Source: Pseudomonas sp. DY-1
Lineage (GTDB): Bacteria; Pseudomonadota; Gammaproteobacteria; Pseudomonadales; Pseudomonadaceae
DNA: 64,000 nt
Direction of reading: 5' to 3'
Assembly: GCF_003626975.1 (NCBI RefSeq)
Contig: NZ_CP032616.1
Location: forward strand, 1,054,001 to 1,118,000
Shown here: piece after piece, positions 20,276 through 34,758 of the stretch
Position numbering within the stretch: position 1 is the first letter of the stretch
Layout: each line of letters begins with the position of its first letter
The notes under the pieces: model-generated
The model's database searches: none
What the model was told of the DNA's origin: nothing
The model's input: only the letters and a program-made list of their open reading frames with translations
Program-made: the position numbers and the translations under genes

Positions 20276-20821
20276 TCAGGGAAATGGAACGGGACGGGCG
20301 GGCTGCAGGGGGAGCCCGGCCTGTTCCCAGGCATCGATGCCATCACGGTACCAGTAGAGGTTGGTGTAGCCCAGCGCGGCAGCGCGTTTCACGGCGTTCC
20401 AGCTCAGCCAGCAGTCGGAACGGCAGTAGAAAACCAGAGGGTGGTTGCTGCGGCCATGGCTGGCCTGTCGCAGATGGCGGCTGAAATAGCCCAGCCATTC
20501 GGCACTGAGTTCGCCATCACCAGTGTTGGCCAGCCAGAGGCTGCCAGGCAGGTTGGCATGGGGTTCGTCTTCGATGAAGCGCCCTTGCAGCCACTGGCGG
20601 CGGTAAACGTCCACCAGCAGGGTATCGGGCTGTGCCTTCAACTGAGCCTCAAGCTGGGCGGTATCCAGGGTACGGGCGGATTCAACGTTGGCTGGTGTCG
20701 GGCTGCGGTAGCGGGTCAGGCGGTAACCGTCCGCGGAGAACAGCGGAGTGTCGGCGGCTTCACTGGCAAGCGCGGGTAGCGCAAGGGCAACGCAGGCAAG
20801 GCAGGTGAGTAGGCGCTTCAT
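20276..20821 (-). CDS. PQQ-dependent catabolism-associated CXXCW (rhodanese-like) protein
   Basis: The 181-residue protein has a signal peptide (MKRLLTCLACVALALPALAS) and a rhodanese-like domain ending in the family signature CRSDCWLSWNAVKRA, followed by LGYTNLYWYRDGIDAWEQAGLP. It is the periplasmic partner found with PQQ-dependent alcohol dehydrogenase clusters (TIGR03865 type). The biochemical role is not known; a redox or sulfur-transfer role is plausible from the Cys pair. A -10-like TGTAAT on the minus strand (20851-20856) would start a transcript about 23 nt before the ATG, with the TACCAAAGTAGTA motif farther upstream. Confidence 0.88.
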   Translation of the reverse strand: MKRLLTCLACVALALPALASEAADTPLFSADGYRLTRYRSPTPANVESARTLDTAQLEAQLKAQPDTLLVDVYRRQWLQGRFIEDEPHANLPGSLWLANTGDGELSAEWLGYFSRHLRQASHGRSNHPLVFYCRSDCWLSWNAVKRAAALGYTNLYWYRDGIDAWEQAGLPLQPARPVPFP

Positions 20822-20904: not shown

Positions 20905-20917
20905 TACCAAAGTAGTA
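20905..20917. promoter_or_regulatory. Candidate operator, TACCAAAGTAGTA
   Basis: One mismatch from the two identical copies at 25034 and 30040. It lies in the 305-bp gap between the ABC permease stop and the rhodanese-erdR promoter, about 85 bp upstream of the rhodanese gene start. The rest of the gap holds no credible gene. Confidence 0.6.
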
Positions 20918-23759: not shown

Positions 23760-24953
23760 TCAGTGCGCTGCGGCGAACTGGCGGCAGGTGCTTTCGGGAC
23801 GGTCGAAGCCGAGGCTGTCCAGCTCGCTTACCGGGTGCAGGAAACCCTCCTGGGGCGAGGTGCTGACCAGGGAGCGGGGATGCACCAGGGGAATGGGCTG
23901 GCGCAACTGGCCGTCCCAGTCGCGGTAGCTCAGCTTGCGGCCCTTGAAGCCGTCCAGCGGCAGGTCGGCGGACAGTGCCAGGGTGCGGATGCCTTGAGCG
24001 TCGGCGCTCTTCAGGCGGGTCACGGCGCTGGCGATGCTTCGCACGGCGATCCAGGCAGCGAAATCGCGGTCGTTCATCCAGCGCCCGGCCAGCGCTTCAA
24101 AACGCTTCTGCAACTGTGCGGCGCCGTAGGTTTCCACTGTCTTGTGCCAACCGGTGGGCGTCAGCCCCTGAGTGCCGGCCACCGGGCGCGGATACCAGGT
24201 GTTGTAGGGCAGGTACTCGCCGAAATCGCCGCGCTCGTCTGCCACCAGTACCACGTCGTATTCGCTGGTCTGGGTGAAAAGCGGCATCTCCGCCTGGGCG
24301 CTGCGGCGCTGGTCGTTATCGAAGGTCCAGGGTTTCTCTTCGACTATTTTCGCGCCGAAACGCCCAGCGGCGCGGCGGATGGCGGCGGCGTAGGCGAGGT
24401 CGTCCGGTGCCTGGCCGGTCACCAGCAGCCAGCGCTGCCAGCGGCGGCTGGCGAGGAACTGGGCCAGGGCGTCGGCCAGCATCGCGCGGTTGGGCAGGCT
24501 GTGCAGCAGATTGGCGCGACACTGTTCGTCCCGCAGTTCGTCACTGGCGCTACCTGCGTTGAACAGCAGGCTATCGGGGAAGGCGTCAGCCAGTTGCAGC
24601 AGCTGCTCCGCCGGGGCGTTGACCACGAACAGCCGCAGACCCTGCTCGTGCAGTTCGTGAGCCTTGGCCAACAACTCATTGGGGGTAGCCGTGCGCACAG
24701 TGCTCAGTGAGTAGCGCTGTTCGAGGAAGCGACCGGTGCTGTTGCTGTCGGTTATCGCCAGTTCGGCTCCGCGCAGCCCGGTGTCTTCCGGTTCGGGTAT
24801 CACGTTGGACAGCAAGGGGCCGCGATCCGGTGTCCAGGCCAGGTAGCCGATGCGAACCTCCAGACCTTCGTCGGCGCGGACTTCGGTGGCGAGAAGGGCG
24901 GCGCTGGACAGTGCCAGCAAGTAGGTCAGGCCGTGGAGCAGGTACTGACGCAT
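23760..24953 (-). CDS. PQQ-associated ABC periplasmic binding protein
   Basis: The 397-residue protein has a signal peptide (MRQYLLHGLTYLLALSSAAL) and a Leu/Ile/Val-binding-type fold, with GLRGAELAITDSNSTGRFL near the N-terminus and a second lobe containing LLVTGQAPDDLAYAAAI. It matches the binding-protein type found with PQQ alcohol oxidation clusters (TIGR03863 type). It is the first gene of the four-gene operon, with a strong AAAGGAG site. The gene is divergent from the small peptide-pedS2-pedR2 unit and shares a 152-bp intergenic region with the operator at 25034. Confidence 0.88.
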   Translation of the reverse strand: MRQYLLHGLTYLLALSSAALLATEVRADEGLEVRIGYLAWTPDRGPLLSNVIPEPEDTGLRGAELAITDSNSTGRFLEQRYSLSTVRTATPNELLAKAHELHEQGLRLFVVNAPAEQLLQLADAFPDSLLFNAGSASDELRDEQCRANLLHSLPNRAMLADALAQFLASRRWQRWLLVTGQAPDDLAYAAAIRRAAGRFGAKIVEEKPWTFDNDQRRSAQAEMPLFTQTSEYDVVLVADERGDFGEYLPYNTWYPRPVAGTQGLTPTGWHKTVETYGAAQLQKRFEALAGRWMNDRDFAAWIAVRSIASAVTRLKSADAQGIRTLALSADLPLDGFKGRKLSYRDWDGQLRQPIPLVHPRSLVSTSPQEGFLHPVSELDSLGFDRPESTCRQFAAAH

Positions 24954-25033
24954 TTCATGGCTCCTTTGAACGTGGAGCCAGCATAGGAACGAGACGGAGC
25001 CTGGGAAATATGAAGAAAGTACCGGTCGTGCGG

Positions 25034-25075
25034 TACCAAGGTAGTAGAAATCGGCCGGCGATTAGGCCCTAGGAT
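25034..25075 (+). promoter_or_regulatory. Candidate operator and -10 for peptide-pedS2-pedR2 unit
   Basis: TACCAAGGTAGTA (25034-25046) is followed, 24 bp after its last base, by a -10-like TAGGAT (25070-25075). No good -35 is present, which fits an activator-dependent promoter. The start would be near 25082, 24 nt before the small ATG at 25106. The copy at 30040 is identical and has the same 24-bp spacing. Confidence 0.7.
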
Positions 25076-25105
25076 GGCCACACAAAAACCTGAAGGAAGC
25101 CGTCC

Positions 25106-25240
25106 ATGCGCATCCTCAAGCACCTGCTGTTGCCGTTGCTACTGATCCTCAGCCTGCTCGGTTTCGACCGCGAAGGGTCCTCCGATTTCCATTACCAGGG
25201 CGGCGCACCGGTGTTGCCGGTCATCTGGTTGGATGAGTGA
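25106..25240 (+). CDS. Small hydrophobic peptide, 44 aa, ahead of pedS2
   Basis: The product is MRILKHLLLPLLLILSLLGF followed by DREGSSDFHYQGGAPVLPVI and WLDE. One hydrophobic helix (residues 4-20) could be a signal or a membrane anchor, leaving an acidic, Pro-rich 24-residue tail outside. AAGGAA precedes the ATG. The stop is 6 bp before the sensor kinase start, so the two are co-transcribed. Its KHLLLPLL core is shared with the 51-residue peptide at 30115. I know of no described function. It could be a co-sensor, a leader peptide or a periplasmic ligand. Confidence 0.72.
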   Translation: MRILKHLLLPLLLILSLLGFDREGSSDFHYQGGAPVLPVIWLDE

Positions 25241-25246
25241 GCCGCG

Positions 25247-26509
25247 ATGTCCGCGCTCTGGCGCATCAACCTGCTGGTCACTCTGTTCTTCGTGCTGGTG
25301 GGGGGGGCCTGCCTGGCGCTGTTGCTGCGCCAGGCCGGGCAGGACGTACGCCGTGAACTGATGGCGGCCGAGGCCGTGGTGGAATACCTGCGTGACTCCG
25401 CCCGGCGCGATCCCGCTGCGCTCCAGCCGCACCTCACCGGCAATCTGCGCCACGTGCGCGTGCATCGCCTTGACCAGCCGTCCGCCGAACCCGCGCCCGG
25501 GCCACTGCAGCGCTGGCTGGCCCATTGGCTGTATCCGGCGGCTGAAGCCAGCGGCGATGTCCTGAGCCTGGTGGATGGCAGCCGCGTGCGGATCAGTGTC
25601 GACCCGCGTGACGAAGTGGACGAGATTCGCGACTCCCTGCAGCAACTGCTGGTGCTGTTCGCCATCGCGCTTTGCTTGAGCCTGTGGGCCATCCGCTGGG
25701 CGGTGCGACGTGGCCTGCGGGTGCTGGATGAGCTGCTTGGTGCACTGCAGCAAGTATCCCGTGGGGACCTGCAAGCACGCCTTCCCGCGCATTCTTCAGC
25801 CGAATCCCAGCGGTTGGCCGGCCACTTCAACCAGATGGCAGCCTGCCTGGAACGGGTCAAGGTGGAGAACGCTGAACTCACCCAGGCGCTGCTGGCACTG
25901 CAGGAGCGCGAACGCCGCCAGCTCGCCCAGGCATTGCACGACGACCTCGGTCAGTACCTCGCGGGTATCCGTGCGCAGCTCTTCCTGCTGCGTAGCGTCA
26001 CGGGGCAGTTGCCGGTGGTTAATCGCACCGCGCAGGCCCTGGAGAACAACTGCCAGCATCTGCAGGATGGCTTCCGCGCCCTGGTGCGCGATCTTTATCC
26101 CGTGGTGCTGGAGCGCCTGGAACTGGCCGAGGCGATTCGATTGCTTGGCCAGCAATGGCAAGAGGCCCACGGCATTTCCTGCCGCATGCAGCTGGCCGAC
26201 GACCTGCCGGCACTCTCGGGTGAAGCCAAGGCCCATCTCTATCGCCTGTTGCAGGAGGCCCTGACCAACGTCGTGCGACATGCCGGTGCCAGCGAAGTGC
26301 GAATCCGCCTGCGTACCGGACAGCGGCGCCTGCGTCTGGTCGTGCGGGATGACGGTCGTGGTGCCGAGAGCCTCGGCGGCGGCGGTATCGGCTTGCGCTC
26401 GATGCGCGAGCGGGCTCGTTGCCTGGGCGGTGAACTCAGGCTATTGACGCGCCCCGGCGCCGGCCTGGTGCTGTGCCTCAACATTCCTCTGGAGGAGCCA
26501 GGACCATGA
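25247..26509 (+). CDS. Membrane sensor histidine kinase, PedS2/EraS type
   Basis: The 420-residue NarX-class kinase has TM1 (about 8-28), a periplasmic loop (29-130), TM2 (131-150), a HAMP region, HisKA_3 with His231 (ERRQLAQALHDDLGQ), and an ATPase domain (LLQEALTNVVRHAGA, DDGRGAESLGGGGIGLRSM). In P. putida the kinase in this position (PedS2) mediates the calcium/lanthanide switch between PedE and PedH. The loop ends with an acidic cluster (Asp119, Asp122, Glu123, Asp125, Glu126, Asp129), a possible metal site. An 8-G run at 25300-25307 lies in TM1. The stop overlaps the regulator start (ATGA). Confidence 0.87.
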   Translation: MSALWRINLLVTLFFVLVGGACLALLLRQAGQDVRRELMAAEAVVEYLRDSARRDPAALQPHLTGNLRHVRVHRLDQPSAEPAPGPLQRWLAHWLYPAAEASGDVLSLVDGSRVRISVDPRDEVDEIRDSLQQLLVLFAIALCLSLWAIRWAVRRGLRVLDELLGALQQVSRGDLQARLPAHSSAESQRLAGHFNQMAACLERVKVENAELTQALLALQERERRQLAQALHDDLGQYLAGIRAQLFLLRSVTGQLPVVNRTAQALENNCQHLQDGFRALVRDLYPVVLERLELAEAIRLLGQQWQEAHGISCRMQLADDLPALSGEAKAHLYRLLQEALTNVVRHAGASEVRIRLRTGQRRLRLVVRDDGRGAESLGGGGIGLRSMRERARCLGGELRLLTRPGAGLVLCLNIPLEEPGP

Positions 26510-27138
26510 AAATTCTGCTGGTGGACGACCACGCGGTGGTGCGCCAGGGCTATGCGGCGTTGCTCTGCGCGTTATTGCCGGAAGTGAGCGTCAGCGAAGC
26601 GGGCAGTGGTGAAGACGCGTTGCAGAAAGTGCAGGAGGAAATTCCCAACCTGGTCATCATCGATGTCGGCCTGCCTGGTATCAGCGGCCTGGAGACCACC
26701 CGCCGCCTGCGTCAGCGCCTGCCGCAGTTGCGCGTGCTGTTCTTCAGCATGCATGACGAGCTGCCCCTGGTGCGTCAGGCGCTGGACACTGGCGCGGCGG
26801 GTTACATCACCAAGAGCTCGCCGCCGGAAGTGTTGCTGGAAGCCGTGCGCCGCATCGTCGCGGGGTATCCCTACATCGAGCAACCGCTGGCGACTCAACT
26901 GGCCTGCCAGCAAACCGACGACCCACGCCTGCGTGGCATCACCCAACGCGAATTCGAGATTTTCGTCATGCTCGCCCGTGGCGTCCCGGCCCGCGAGATC
27001 GCCGAGCGCCTGTGCATCAGTGGCAAGACTGTTTCCAACTACCTGACCCTGTTGAAGAGCAAGTTGCAGGTGGAGTCCCAGGCAGAGCTGGTGCACCTGG
27101 CGATCGACACCGGGGTGTTGCGGGTGGCGACGGTTTAG
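26506..27138 (+). CDS. LuxR-type response regulator, PedR2/EraR type
   Basis: The 210-residue protein has a receiver domain (Asp8-Asp9 pocket, phosphoacceptor Asp53 in LVIIDVGLPG, Lys in YITKSSP) and a C-terminal LuxR HTH (VPAREIAERLCISGKTVSNY). I chose the ATG at 26506, which overlaps the kinase stop. It is the cognate partner of the kinase by position. In P. putida PedR2 activates pedE and represses pedH when lanthanides are absent; the same role here is inferred from the matching gene order. Confidence 0.88.
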   Translation: MKILLVDDHAVVRQGYAALLCALLPEVSVSEAGSGEDALQKVQEEIPNLVIIDVGLPGISGLETTRRLRQRLPQLRVLFFSMHDELPLVRQALDTGAAGYITKSSPPEVLLEAVRRIVAGYPYIEQPLATQLACQQTDDPRLRGITQREFEIFVMLARGVPAREIAERLCISGKTVSNYLTLLKSKLQVESQAELVHLAIDTGVLRVATV

Positions 27139-27170
27139 CGCAACAGCGCGTCCCATTCGGTATGTCGGAG

Positions 27171-27225
27171 TAGGGTGCGCATGGCGCACCCGCGGCTCAA
27201 CGCCGCCCTAGTAGGGTGGGCCATG
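27171..27225. repeat. TAGGGTGCGC-type repeat between convergent genes
   Basis: GGGTGCGC (27173-27180) and GCGCACCC (27184-27191) form a tight hairpin. A partial second copy (GTAGGGTGGGCC) follows. It belongs to the same dispersed family as 21954 and 41428 and may serve as a shared transcript end for pedR2 and the pentapeptide gene. Confidence 0.65.
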
Positions 27226-27236
27226 CACACCGATGC

Positions 27237-27884
27237 TCAGTCCCAGCCGCTCGGGCAACCCTTGCAGCCTTCCATGTTGGTGGCCTGGAACGTCGCGTAG
27301 TGCCTGCGTGCACCGGTGAGATCTGCATTTTCCAGGTTGGCTTCGCCTATCTTGGCTTCCTGCAGGTTGGCGTCGCGCAGGTCGGCGCCCTTGAGATCGG
27401 CCTTGCTCAGCCAGGCCATTTCCAGGTCGGCGGCCTGGAGTCTCACCTGATGCATCTTCGCTCCGGAGAAACGGGCGAATTCCAGATAGGCGGCGGAAAG
27501 GTCGGCACCCCTGAATTCGGCGGCCTGGGCGAACATGCCCCAGCCCTGGACGGCCACCATGCGACTGCCCGAAAGGTCGGCCAGGCGCAGGTTGGTCTGT
27601 TGCAGGCTGGCGCGGGTCAGATTGGCGCCAGCCAGGTGGGCTTTTTCCAGGTTGGCCAGGTCCAGCCGGACGTGGCGCAGGTCGGCGCCCTCAAGGTTGG
27701 CACCTGACAGGTCCATCTTGCTCATGTCCTGGTTGGACAGGTTGGCGCCGCGCAGGTCGGCCCCCGGGCAGCGGCTTTCCGGGACGATGCGGCAGCCGTT
27801 GATGACCAGGTCGCCGTCGTCGGCCAACGCGACGCTGCCGGTGACCAGCAGGGCAAGAGGGAGGAACAGGTGCAGGTTGTTCAT
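27237..27884 (-). CDS. Secreted pentapeptide-repeat protein
   Basis: The 215-residue protein has a signal peptide (MNNLHLFLPLALLVTGSVALA) and then two blocks of A(D/N)LXX pentapeptide repeats (ADLRGANLSNQDMSKMDLSG, ADLKGADLRDANLQEAKIGE). It starts with a Cys-bearing segment (NGCRIVPESRCPGADL) and ends CKGCPSGWD. The repeats should fold as a right-handed beta helix. The gene follows pedE by 58 bp and is probably co-transcribed; the same pair occurs in the P. putida ped cluster. Function unknown. Confidence 0.88.
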   Translation of the reverse strand: MNNLHLFLPLALLVTGSVALADDGDLVINGCRIVPESRCPGADLRGANLSNQDMSKMDLSGANLEGADLRHVRLDLANLEKAHLAGANLTRASLQQTNLRLADLSGSRMVAVQGWGMFAQAAEFRGADLSAAYLEFARFSGAKMHQVRLQAADLEMAWLSKADLKGADLRDANLQEAKIGEANLENADLTGARRHYATFQATNMEGCKGCPSGWD

Positions 27885-27942
27885 GGCAGTTTTCCGTTCA
27901 GGTCGGGAAAGGAAACCGGGGCCCATGGCCCCGGTCCGTCAC

Positions 27943-29811
27943 TCAGCGTTGTGCGGTCTTGTCCCAGCTCGGCAGCTTGAACACCCAGAAGGAGCCGCCC
28001 TGGGCCACGGGCTTGGTCAGGTCGGCCATGTCGCCACCCCAAAGCGGAACCGCACCGCCGTAGCCCACGGTCACACCGATGTACTGCACGCCGTCCTGTT
28101 CCCAGGTGATGGGCGGGGAGACGATGCCGCTGCCGGTCTGGAACTTCCACAGCTCATTGCCGTTCTTGGCGTCGAAGGCCTTGAGGAAACCGTCGCCAGT
28201 GCCGGTGAACACCAGGCCACCCTTGGTGGCCAGCACGCCGGCCCAGAGCGGCAAGCGCTCCTTGTGCTCCCACACGATCTTGCCGGTGGAGGGGTTCATC
28301 GCACGCAGGATGCCGACATGGTCGTCATACATGCGCTTGATGCGGAAACCCTGGCCGAGATACGCCGAGCCTTTCTTGTAGGCGACCTCTTCGGTCCAGT
28401 AGTCCTCCTTCCAGTGGTTGGCCGGTACGTAGAACAGGCCGGTGTCCTGGCTGTAGGCCATGGGGTTCCAGTTCTTGCCACCCAGGAAAGGGGGCGAGAC
28501 TTCCACCGCCTTGCCGTGCTTCTGGCCGGGCTCCGGCAATGGCGGGCGCTGGCCGGGGTTCTCCACCGGACGGCCGGTTTTCAGGTCGATGTGGCTGGCC
28601 CAGGTGATGTTGTCGACGAAGGGGAAGGCGTTCTGCAGCTTGCCGTTGCTGCGGTCGACCACATAGAAGAAGCCATTGCGGTCGGCGTGGGCGGTGGCCT
28701 TGACGGTTTTTCCGTCCTTGCCCTTGTAGTCGAACAGCACCAGTTCGTTGTTGCCGGAGAAGTCCCAGGCATCGTTGGGCGTGTGCTGGTAGAACCATTT
28801 CACTTCGCCGGTGCTCGGGTCCACGCCGACCTGGCCGGAGGTGTAGAGGCTGTCGAAGTCCTTCGGGGCGCCGCCGTCGGCGGTGCGTGCCCAGCCGTTC
28901 CAGGGCGCCGGGTTGCCGGCACCAACGATGATGGTGTTGGTCTGCGGATCGAAGCTCGCGCTCTGCCAGGGAGCGCCGCCGCCATGGCTCCAGGCTTCCT
29001 TCTTGCCGGAGGGATGATTCTTGTCGTCCGGCCAGGACGGTGCCTTGATGTCGCCGGTGGGGGTGCTGTCCTTGCCGTTCAAGCGCCCCATGTGGCCTTC
29101 GACGAAAGGACGCATCCACACCTCTTCGCCGCTGTCCGGGTCGCGTGCGTAGAGTTGACCGACCACGCCGAACTCGTCGCCTGAGCTGCCGTGGATCAGC
29201 AGCACGCGTCCGCTCTTCTGGTCTTTCACGATCGTCGGCGCACCGGTCATGGTATAGCCGGCCCCGTGCTCGCCGAACTTCTTGTTCCAGACCACCTTGC
29301 CGGTCTTCTTGTCGAGTGCGACCACGCGGGCATCCAGGGTGCCGAAGAAGATCTTGTCGCTGTAGATGGCGGCGCCACGGTTGACCACGTCGCAGCAGGG
29401 ACGAATGTCGTCGGGCAGGCGGTGGTTGTAGGTCCACAGGCGGTGGCCGGTCTTGGCGTCGAGGGCGAAGACGCGGGAATAGGAGGCCGTGACGTAGATC
29501 ACCCCGTCACTGACGATCGCCTGGGATTCCTGGCCGCGTTGCTTCTCGTCGCCGAAGGAGAAGGACCAGGCGGGCGCCAGCTTGAACACGTTGTCTGCGT
29601 TCACCTGGGCCAGAGGGCTCCAGCGTTGGGCGTTGGTGCCCAGGCCGTACTGCAGCACGTCGCTGGTGGTCTGATGGTCGTTGGCGATGTCGTCCCAGGT
29701 GACGGCCTTGGCGAGGGCGCCGCCGGCAGCGGCCAGGCCTCCCACCAGCAAGAGGCAGCGGATGGCGGTCGAAAGCCGGCTGGCAGGTAAGGGTAGCGAT
29801 CTTGTTGTCAT
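27943..29811 (-). CDS. pedE: Quinoprotein alcohol dehydrogenase, calcium type (PedE/ExaA)
   Basis: The 622-residue periplasmic PQQ enzyme oxidises primary alcohols to aldehydes and passes electrons to cytochrome c550. A signal peptide ends at residue 34 ([12 protein letters not shown]). It shows PQQ-propeller tryptophan-docking repeats, the adjacent Cys pair ([10 protein letters not shown]) and the catalytic Asp350 (316 in mature numbering, as in ExaA) in WDFSGNNE. The residue two after the Asp is Ser, which marks the calcium form. The ATG at 29809-29811 is followed directly by the signal peptide; the longer upstream frame is not coding. It is divergent from the small peptide and cytochrome genes. 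Confidence 0.95.
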
Positions 29812-29916
29812 GGTTGCGATTCCCATAGTCGATGGATACGGGGCCATCTGCTGGCCCGGCGTCTCGAATGGTGGGATTCGCGTCGTCACCTTGATACGGA
29901 AAAGCTCCCGCGCTTG

Positions 29917-29933
29917 CCGGGAAAACTTCCCGC
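29917..29933. promoter_or_regulatory. Near-palindrome upstream of pedE shared with pedH
   Basis: CCGGGAAAACTTCCCGC matches 14 of 17 positions of the palindrome CCGGGAAATTTTCCCGG at 34820, which lies in front of pedH. It is 106 bp upstream of the pedE ATG. It could be an operator common to the two dehydrogenase genes. Confidence 0.5.
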
Positions 29934-30017
29934 TGCGGCCATGATTTGGCACTGCTGCCAAAGCCGCTGCCGATACCTGCCAAGGCATTGCGACAAAGGG
30001 GCAGGGCGCCTGCGACC

Positions 30018-30081
30018 ACACAAGGTAGTGGTCCGGCGCTACCAAGGTAGTAAGGCCGCGTGGGGCTCATGGCCCTAGTCT
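30018..30081 (+). promoter_or_regulatory. Candidate tandem operator and -10 in the pedE / small-peptide divergent region
   Basis: TACCAAGGTAGTA at 30040-30052 is identical to the copy at 25034. A weaker copy, ACACAAGGTAGTG (30018-30030), lies 22 bp upstream. A -10-like TAGTCT starts 24 bp after the main copy (30076-30081), the same spacing as at 25070, and puts the transcript start about 27 nt before the ATG at 30115. The 303-bp gap (29812-30114) must also hold the pedE promoter on the other strand, which I could not place. Confidence 0.7.
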
Positions 30082-30114
30082 GACTCGCAGGGGAACCGGC
30101 AAGAGGATTCCGTC

Positions 30115-30270
30115 ATGGCTGCTATCAAACATCTTCTTTTACCGCTCCTGGTCGTCTGCTGCCTGCTCGAATTCGAGCTGGCCAGGGCCGCAAGCGTCCC
30201 CTCCCGGCACACCCCTCATTCGCTGGACCTGACCCCCTCCATCTCGACCTCTTGCTCCCGGGCCAACTGA
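30115..30270 (+). CDS. Small hydrophobic peptide, 51 aa, between pedE and cytochrome gene
   Basis: The product is MAAIKHLLLPLLVVCCLLEF, then ELARAASVPSRHTPHSLDLT and PSISTSCSRAN. It has a hydrophobic signal-like segment with possible cleavage after ARA, leaving about 26 residues rich in Ser, Thr and Pro with one Cys. AGAGGA precedes the ATG. The KHLLLPLL core is identical to that of the 44-residue peptide at 25106, and both genes sit behind the same operator with the same geometry. A strong hairpin (30302) follows, so it may form its own short transcript. Function unknown. Confidence 0.68.
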   Translation: MAAIKHLLLPLLVVCCLLEFELARAASVPSRHTPHSLDLTPSISTSCSRAN

Positions 30271-30301
30271 AAGGCCGACCTGCTTTCCAATCGCATAAGT
30301 A

Positions 30302-30346
30302 CCAGCGAGCTGGCGAATCGCTTTTTGTGGTTCGCCAGCTCGCTGG
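30302..30346. repeat. Perfect 16-bp inverted repeat after the small peptide gene
   Basis: CCAGCGAGCTGGCGAA (30302-30317) and its exact complement (30331-30346) enclose TCGCTTTTTGTGG. The hairpin could end or stabilise the short transcript. It resembles a REP stem but differs from the GTAGGAGCGAGC type. Confidence 0.75.
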
Positions 30347-30403
30347 CGCCTGCGTTATCGACCTTTGCGTGGAAATTTCTTCACCGGCCTCCGCTCGCAC
30401 TAC

Positions 30404-30416
30404 TACCAAGGGAGGA
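30404..30416 (+). promoter_or_regulatory. Candidate operator before cytochrome c gene
   Basis: TACCAAGGGAGGA, preceded by CTAC, resembles the operator family and lies 109 bp upstream of the cytochrome ATG. A CAGGAT at 30434 is a possible -10, but the spacing differs from the 25034 and 30040 copies. Confidence 0.5.
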
Positions 30417-30524
30417 GTGCCAGGCCACCAAAGCAGGATGGGGAGCTTGCAAGGGGCTTCTTACCATTTCCTCACAGCGCTCCCACCGGGGCGCCGCCTT
30501 GCACAGCTAATGAGGATGTACGTG

Positions 30525-30962
30525 ATGAACAAGAACAGCGCACTGCGCGGCCTCGCACTCCTGGCCGGCTTTACCCTCAGCGGAATCGTACTGGCCCATG
30601 GCGACGTGGTGCCCCAGGCAGTCAACACCCAAGGTCTGGAGGAACTGGGCAAGGAATGGCGCGAAGAAAACCCCTATCGCGCGCCTTATGCCAATCACGA
30701 CCTGGCCGTTGAGATCGGTTCCTCTGCCTACAACCAGAACTGCGCCCGCTGCCACGGCCTGGAAGCCAAGTCCGGCGGCATCGCCCCCGACCTGCGCTAC
30801 CTGGAAACCGACGCCAGCGGCGATGAGTGGTTCAAGGAGCGGGTGATCAACGGCGCCGTGCGCGACGGCGCGGTGTACATGCCGAAGATGGCCGACTTCC
30901 TCAGCCAGGAAGCCCTCTGGGCCATCCGCACCTACCTGGAAAGCGTGCACGTGGACGAGTAA
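30525..30962 (+). CDS. pedF: Periplasmic cytochrome c550 (PedF/ExaB)
   Basis: The 145-residue cytochrome accepts electrons from the PQQ alcohol dehydrogenases. A signal peptide (MNKNSALRGLALLAGFTLSG, cleavage near VLA-HGDV) precedes one heme site CARCH and a C-terminal Met ligand in YMPKMADFL. GAGGA lies 9 nt before the ATG at 30525; two in-frame ATGs a little upstream (30510, 30516) are less well placed. It is the first gene of a run with the periplasmic binding, SoxYZ-like and metallohydrolase genes. Confidence 0.92.
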   Translation: MNKNSALRGLALLAGFTLSGIVLAHGDVVPQAVNTQGLEELGKEWREENPYRAPYANHDLAVEIGSSAYNQNCARCHGLEAKSGGIAPDLRYLETDASGDEWFKERVINGAVRDGAVYMPKMADFLSQEALWAIRTYLESVHVDE

Positions 30963-34642: not shown

Positions 34643-34745
34643 AGGTCCCGGGACGTTGGAGTGCGAAGCAGGGGCGGCAGTCTGCCAGTGGTAGGCGCCG
34701 CAGCACAATCGGCAGCTGAAGTATGCGGGGGATTGGCGGTATTGC

Positions 34746-34758
34746 TACCAACGGAGTA
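34746..34758 (+). promoter_or_regulatory. Candidate operator before pedH
   Basis: TACCAACGGAGTA, preceded by C as in several other copies, lies 111 bp upstream of the pedH ATG. I see no convincing -10 at the expected spacing. Confidence 0.55.

Follow-up and report, generated by a model that had tools for sequence, protein, structure and literature searches.

Two minigenes of the Pseudomonas ped cluster as probable signal-peptide-only descendants of an exported cupredoxin-fold protein

Results

Two minigenes with a common hydrophobic N-terminus

This analysis concerns two very small genes in a 64,000-nucleotide stretch of the Pseudomonas sp. DY-1 genome (NZ_CP032616.1, positions 1,054,001 to 1,118,000), which we call the window and whose numbering is used below. 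The genes, labelled S and E throughout, lie in the ped cluster, which encodes a lanthanide-sensing two-component system and a pyrroloquinoline quinone (PQQ) alcohol dehydrogenase. Both probably derive from the signal peptide of FL145, a longer exported protein that occupies the slot of S in related genomes. The two genes and the elements around them are:

25034-25046, plus strand: operator of S, exact match to TACCAAGGTAGTA
25070-25075, plus strand: -10-like hexamer of S, TAGGAT, 23 nt past the operator
25093-25099, plus strand: Shine-Dalgarno-like sequence of S, AAGGAAG
25106-25240, plus strand: minigene S, 44 aa; predicted signal anchor in codons 1-22 (25106-25171), then a near-neutral tail
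30040-30052, plus strand: operator of E, exact match to TACCAAGGTAGTA
30076-30081, plus strand: -10-like hexamer of E, TAGTCT, 23 nt past the operator
30101-30107, plus strand: Shine-Dalgarno-like sequence of E, AAGAGGA
30115-30270, plus strand: minigene E, 51 aa; predicted signal peptide with an ARA↓A-type site and a short tail
30302-30346, no strand assigned: perfect 16-nt inverted repeat behind E, terminator-like or repetitive extragenic palindromic (REP)-like

Both open reading frames lie where a sequence-only reading of the window had placed them, and neither is annotated in the genome. That reading had also pointed to a shared KHLLLPLL core, and the core is real: its synonymous codons differ at 7 of 8 positions between the two genes, so that the likeness of S and E lies at the protein level. 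The identical operators and common promoter geometry were recovered as well, with the layout of operator, 23 nt, TAGNNT hexamer, 30 or 33 nt and start codon, and each gene has its own promoter and ribosome site. The placement was likewise correct, the stop codon of S lying 6 nt upstream of the start of the PedS2-like kinase gene and E sitting between the divergent pedE and pedF, the latter encoding a cytochrome. S is predicted to contain one strongly hydrophobic stretch (residues ~6-20) preceded by K/R. The S of the window has no A-x-A cleavage site, and E has the cleavage-like ARA↓A.

Searches of both peptides against Pfam, NCBIfam and PHROGs gave no match at E-values up to 1. A reading of the region as an RNA element was rejected, as no Rfam model matched at gathering score across 24900-30600 and, in the window's genus, synonymous sites vary about as freely in the anchor as in the tail, which does not hold for all sets. 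PqqA-type precursor peptides carry a conserved E-x-x-x-Y; no such motif is conserved in the alignments of S or E, and this candidate was also rejected.

A longer protein in the slot of S

Genomes G010, G020, G024 and G026 have, behind an operator that is identical or slightly changed, the gene of a 145-residue exported protein, FL145, whose predicted signal peptide is the KHLLLPLL-core N-terminus of the minigenes. In the last three of these genomes FL145 directly precedes pedS2-pedR2, that is, it holds the position of S, with a gap of 215 nt in G026. FL145 and the minigenes have the N-terminal 21-25 residues and the promoter type in common; S shares the gene position as well, E the N-terminus and promoter only. 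Profile comparison with hhalign aligned S to FL145 over 28 columns (E-value 4e-12) and E to FL145 over 41 columns (E-value 9.5e-10). The latter alignment reaches into the start of the mature protein, and the earlier statement that the peptides diverge after the core therefore does not extend to E. The mature domain of ~120 residues is absent from S (44 aa) and from E (51 aa), and no full-length copy of FL145 was found in the genome of the window. Judged from these alignments, S and E share descent with FL145, which, like the tight spacing described below, goes beyond what the sequence-only reading had proposed.

The fold of FL145 is, according to its model, that of a cupredoxin. The AlphaFold2 model has a predicted local distance difference score (pLDDT) of 77.6 and a predicted template modelling score (pTM) of 0.65. 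All 50 listed Foldseek matches are titled as cupredoxins (including plastocyanins), copper oxidases, nitrous oxide reductases or a cytochrome oxidase, with a best E-value of 1.2e-5 and template modelling scores of 0.58-0.70 on Cupredoxin_1 and plastocyanin chains. At the level of profiles the matches to cupredoxin families stay below threshold (Cupredoxin_1, 15.5 bits at a cut-off of 27; plastocyanin, 18.7 at a cut-off of 87.85).

Homologues of FL145 are also present on alphaproteobacterial plasmids (167 records, identity <60%), one of them supported by hhalign at an E-value of 1.6e-15. Six such loci were viewed. In four of them, genes for a substrate-binding protein and a YVTN propeller (lutA/lutB-like) lie immediately upstream of the homologue within a run of ATP-binding cassette (ABC) transporter genes, an order that, by sequence, resembles the lutAB-EF layout; in L302, L303, L304 and L305 it is the third gene of the lut-like run. 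A PQQ-dependent dehydrogenase is encoded in three of the six and a PQQ-binding-like propeller protein in a fourth. The homologue is annotated as "hypothetical protein" in all six.

On a tree of pedA1, the substrate-binding protein gene beside S, the FL145 label has to change five times, and for at least three of these changes well supported branches leave no alternative. Because a mature domain is hard to regain, these changes point to repeated truncation, with whole-cluster transfer as a possible alternative. In Stutzerimonas-type loci (L128, L139, L142, L148, L151), pedA1 and FL145 are ~2.5 kb apart, and each end of this interval has an operator-type site.

As a check on its claims the sequence-only reading had named conservation of frame and position in relatives, and both are found: the S profile matches in all 18 genomes of the genus, 17 of which have a minigene whereas G010 has FL145, and E is present in 11 of the 18. 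By its distribution among the sequences E is a genus-restricted copy. The wider family is larger, the N-terminal profile matching 149 of 398 genomes at an E-value of 0.1 or better, a few of these matches being weak and at least one false. We fetched 39 of the 149 matches, a selection from the short or oddly framed ones, together with a second S-like gene of G003 on contig C75; L283 proved false and was dropped, and L280 and L282 begin five codons further upstream than in our initial list of minigenes.

Selection on the anchor

We compared pairwise ratios of non-synonymous to synonymous divergence (pN/pS), uncorrected for kinship, between the anchor (codons 2-22 in the window's genus) and the tail. 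In the window's genus the ratio is 0.14 for the anchor (12 S) and 0.77 for the tail (11 sequences), whereas synonymous divergence is about equal (0.33 vs 0.35), and a permutation of codon columns separated anchor from tail at p=0.0008. Synonymous changes thus dominate in the core, the second check that had been named. In the fluorescens group the anchor stands at 0.20 (n=15) and the tail, in the seven 40-aa members, at 0.77, again with about equal synonymous divergence in these 40-aa members; the anchor of the citronellolis group stands at 0.11 (n=9). Overall, five S sets with a synonymous divergence (pS) of 0.22-0.51 gave anchor values of 0.11-0.23, and six of the ten tail sets evolve almost neutrally (0.77-1.14). 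Four E of 51 aa show the same pattern (anchor 0.16 vs tail 1.14).

For comparison, six control signal peptides from the same genomes (pedA1, pedA2, pedF, pedG, soxH and the rhodanese gene; lengths set by eye) were pooled. They gave 0.44 against 0.12 for the S anchor in 8 genomes, with 12 of 5000 permutations as extreme, and 0.51 against 0.21 in 14 genomes, with 5 of 5000 permutations as extreme. The S anchor is tighter than these controls and so does not behave as an ordinary signal peptide. Even changes that conserve hydrophobicity occur in the anchor at only 0.16 of the synonymous rate in the window's genus, and at 0.31-0.39 in the g14 and g9 sets. These substitution patterns show strong purifying selection on the amino acids of the anchor.

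The tails themselves come in many lengths. The minigenes range from 30 to 89 aa and 38 distinct tails are found among 39 of them; some tails read into the pedF promoter. In L254, L267, L268, L275, L277-L279 and L281 the tails resemble translated REP elements, and where the distance was measured their frame runs on to 2 nt before pedS2.

Stop/start spacing and the leader-cistron alternative

In all 34 distinct minigenes for which a pedS2 start was found, the stop codon lies -4 to +15 nt from that start (median 2). The corresponding distance for 32 FL145 genes is -1 to 44 nt, with one at 215 (median 13), a difference that is significant when kinship is ignored (Mann-Whitney 5e-9). Where pedS2 is gone and pedR2 comes next, the minigene and pedR2 overlap by ATGA in six of seven loci, and two variant kinases start 1 and 3 nt past the minigene stop. 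Taken over all minigenes followed by a ped two-component gene, the distance is -4 to +15 nt in 42 of 43. That separate truncations share the same spacing argues for translational coupling: S is positioned for coupling to the two-component genes, and its translation would thereby be coupled to that of pedS2 or pedR2.

Translationally coupled leader cistrons have a stop near the next start and a spacer sequence that is free to drift. S could be a pure leader cistron that matters only through being translated up to the pedS2/pedR2 start, for coupling or for targeting the message to the membrane, with the peptide functionless. The spacing just described, held by drifting and partly REP-like tails, speaks for this explanation, as does a slot that is filled at every pedS2-positive locus (see below). 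However, the first 21 residues of S are conserved in amino acids beyond the level of ordinary signal peptides, and hydrophobic-conservative replacements, too, are rare in the window's genus. Furthermore, E is not coupled to any next gene, having no close downstream neighbour and the inverted repeat behind it instead, and S persists at 17 loci without pedS2. We therefore regard a pure leader cistron as a serious explanation but a rather unlikely one.

Slot occupancy and loss of pedS2

The neighbouring genes that bear on the distribution of the minigenes are:

23760-24953, minus strand: pedA1, substrate-binding protein of the PedA1A2BC transporter, divergent from S; named by synteny with the gene table of PMC12997753, as far as that source was covered
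25247-26509, plus strand: pedS2-like histidine kinase (HAMP, HisKA_3, HATPase)
26506-27138, plus strand: pedR2-like response regulator, ATGA overlap with pedS2
27943-29811, minus strand: pedE, PQQ alcohol dehydrogenase, divergent from E
30525-30962, plus strand: pedF, cytochrome c550; a weaker operator-like site of its own lies at 30403-30416

With pedA1 as the anchor for collecting the loci of relatives, we classified 90 stretches, namely the window, nine further genome stretches and 80 pedA1-anchored loci (the best 80 of 277 relatives). Slot occupancy was counted in the 78 stretches longer than 18 kb, leaving out 12 shorter ones; three genomes are counted twice, and "pedS2-less" means that pedS2 was not found within the stretch examined (G003, for example, has a pedS2 on another contig). 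FL145 occupies the slot in 35 of these stretches and a minigene in 31, and the other 12 have neither. Every one of the 45 pedS2-positive loci has a filled slot (14 minigene, 31 FL145), compared with 21 of the 33 pedS2-less ones (17 minigene, 4 FL145), an association with a Fisher probability of 8e-6, or 9e-6 without the three twice-counted genomes, in neither case corrected for kinship. Of the 18 genomes of the genus, seven lack pedS2, and S or FL145 is kept in each of these. The junctions left by the loss of pedS2 differ among most genomes, one of which retains the first pedS2 codons, and the losses are thus repeated and in part recent.

Several individual loci illustrate the variety of arrangements. 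In L098, L100-L105, L111, L116 and others pedS2-pedR2-pedD-pedE was not found in the stretch, and S and pedF are often left at the edges. In G318, G404 and G294 pedA1A2BC was not found in the stretch and the minigene lies between the rhodanese gene and pedR2. G003 carries two S-like genes, one (L101, contig C32) at the usual place without pedS2 and the other (L284, contig C75) of 30 aa and more altered, before a pedS2 and with pedE divergent upstream. The kinase after the minigene in L252 and L271/L291 matches only the C-terminal part of PedS2, apparently without the sensor region. The pedA1 tree shows 17 changes of pedS2 state, which is an upper figure as short contigs are included. A plasmid collection searched for pedS2 gave no match at an E-value of 1e-40.

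These counts bear on a second alternative, in which S is a PedS2-specific small membrane modulator that binds the membrane segments of the kinase and tunes lanthanide sensing. MgrB has been described as a small membrane protein modulating a histidine kinase, and SafA is another. S is comparable to these in having ~45 aa and one predicted hydrophobic segment and in lying in a sensor-kinase operon under a cluster operator, and the excess of filled slots at pedS2-positive loci also speaks for a tie to PedS2. On the other side, the slot is kept at 21 loci where pedS2 was not found, and minigenes stand beside the two kinases whose match to PedS2 is confined to its C-terminal part. The anchor also appears constrained in three clades judged to share a pedS2 deletion, one grouped by eye from a 60-nt junction and with the identical row L177 left out, where synonymous and non-synonymous anchor changes summed over pairs stand at 24.5:13.5, 6:0 and 2:0, few as these changes are. 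In addition, S appears to have arisen by truncation of an exported protein. We consider a modulator acting on PedS2 only to be unlikely, and the earlier suggestion of a sensor cofactor, in line with the filled slot at all pedS2-positive loci, is possible. The slot counts and the comparison of junctions also make it less likely that S is independent of PedS2.

The further suggestion that the peptides are small partners of the dehydrogenase is disfavored, as E is retained at six of the eight genus loci without pedE (this refers to the loci, the rest of those genomes not having been searched; G003 has a pedE). A strict PedS2 or PedE partner is thus unlikely; what remains is a link to the two-component operon together with some further role.

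Operators in the ped cluster

An exact search for TACCAANGTAGTA in the 5.9-Mb genome returned three matches only, all in this cluster. Two are those of S and E and the third is:

20905-20917, no strand assigned: third exact operator, TACCAAAGTAGTA, upstream of a rhodanese gene (20276-20821, minus strand)

Allowing one mismatch gives 7 genome matches versus 8 for a control, so there is no enrichment of the looser pattern. Among 70 S-type promoters, the 23-nt spacing between operator and hexamer is found in 35 of the 36 in which a hexamer was found; the open reading frames of this set were chosen by their operator, so that operator counts from it are circular. The 39 minigenes found by protein profile all have an operator-type site. 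Operator-like sites also occur before the rhodanese gene (20905-20917), pedF (30403-30416) and pedH (34745-34758), which suggests a single regulator over the cluster. An operator dedicated to PedR2 alone is unlikely, given that exact sites persist at loci without pedR2, such as G012. A search of the open-access literature found no motif for AgmR or PedR2.

Discussion

Taken together, we think it probable that S and E descend from FL145 and retain only its signal peptide, FL145 being an exported accessory protein with a cupredoxin fold in the lanthanide/PQQ-dehydrogenase (ped/lut) system, and that the two minigenes persist as a selected small membrane peptide, with S serving also as a coupled leader cistron. 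We infer translation, membrane insertion, coupling, the operator-binding regulator and any contact, and picture them as follows. Transcription would proceed from the cluster-specific operator, with AgmR or PedR2 as its probable binder. The ~21-residue hydrophobic N-terminus of the translated peptide would insert into the inner membrane, where S, having no A-x-A, probably remains as a single-pass anchor, while E keeps a cleavage site. A ribosome on S would stop a few nucleotides from pedS2, or from pedR2 in some lineages, so that S could act as a coupled leader cistron. The anchor sequence is itself selected, beyond the level of ordinary signal peptides, and most likely acts as a small membrane protein, whose contact may be PedS2 or a cluster partner common to PedS2-less strains. 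A bolder and more tentative version, which we hold to be possible but somewhat doubtful, is that the signal peptide has outlived its protein: several Pseudomonas lineages would separately have lost the FL145 domain, the signal sequence staying behind as an independent membrane peptide under selection, placed at the head of the lanthanide-sensing two-component system and tuning it.

A number of observations weigh against this explanation. The slot is dispensable at the 12 of 33 pedS2-less loci where it is empty, the pedA1 side there running straight into the pedF promoter, and in L265 pedR2 lies ~140 nt from the minigene. Many pedS2 deletions look independent and some recent, so that constraint after the loss rests on few changes. 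Over all ten E the anchor stands at 0.31, which is not clearly tighter than ordinary signal peptides. The tails of four of the ten sets are not neutral, namely the 52-aa citronellolis-type members (0.36), four minigenes from another context (0.44) and two shared-deletion clades (0.48 and 0.24). In the six 52-aa citronellolis-type members the anchor stands at 0.26 with very few synonymous changes, and in this set and two clades the anchor has far fewer synonymous changes than the tail (for example a pS of 0.06 vs 0.41), so that a constraint at the DNA level may act there. Finally, the FL145 signal peptide has within-group ratios of 0.12 (mendocina) and 0.31 (stutzeri), so part of the anchor constraint may predate truncation.

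Some of these points would be expected if the minigenes were decaying remnants whose signal peptide lingers through recent ancestry or through overlap with promoter and leader. The empty slots, the mostly near-neutral tails, the tight FL145 signal peptide and the scarce synonymous changes in the 52-aa set all fit such decay. It is nevertheless improbable in view of the low anchor ratios in five S sets with ample synonymous divergence and of the equal synonymous divergence of anchor and tail in the window's genus and the 40-aa fluorescens-type members; the open frames of the 39 minigenes are a weak point here because they were chosen as open frames. A secreted signal or pheromone made from the tail or from a cleaved signal peptide, as the sequence-only reading had also considered, would suit the signal-peptide-like N-terminus, the ARA↓A of E and the enterococcal sex pheromones, which derive from lipoprotein signal peptides, but is very improbable, as A-x-A occurs at residues 19-28 in only 1 of 12 genus S and 1 of 39 minigenes, and a signal from the tail was rejected because of tails that are near-neutral in most sets (0.77 in S, 1.14 in the four 51-aa E), partly REP-like and unrelated between lineages.

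The signal-peptide-only descent that we favor has partial parallels in known systems. As with the enterococcal pheromones, function would reside in the signal-peptide segment, although S and E are without a parent lipoprotein. LutD, from the lut cluster of Methylorubrum extorquens, reportedly binds lanthanides (PMC7391723, in the part covered). FL145 homologues follow lutA/lutB-like genes at four of the six alphaproteobacterial loci, and FL145 is, by gene position, a possible counterpart of LutC or LutD, whereas the minigenes keep none of the domain.

For PedS2, the original study allowed either direct binding of lanthanides or an uncharacterised indirect interaction (PMC6115532, as far as covered). 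A 2026 review of the ped cluster does not mention FL145 or the minigenes in the parts covered (PMC12997753), and we found no report of these peptides in the open-access literature, supplements not included. Genes this small are probably easily overlooked by annotation. The gene directly before pedS2 encodes an exported cupredoxin-fold protein in many species, with homologues in operons of lanthanide-transport type, and in others only the selected anchor, which gives two concrete candidate players in lanthanide perception. The repeated truncation to a conserved signal peptide would also offer a natural test case for the question of whether segments of this kind can be functional by themselves. 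A front end that is conserved without its protein suggests that the short peptide does something itself and, if this is true, what began as a signal sequence now stands as a separate gene.

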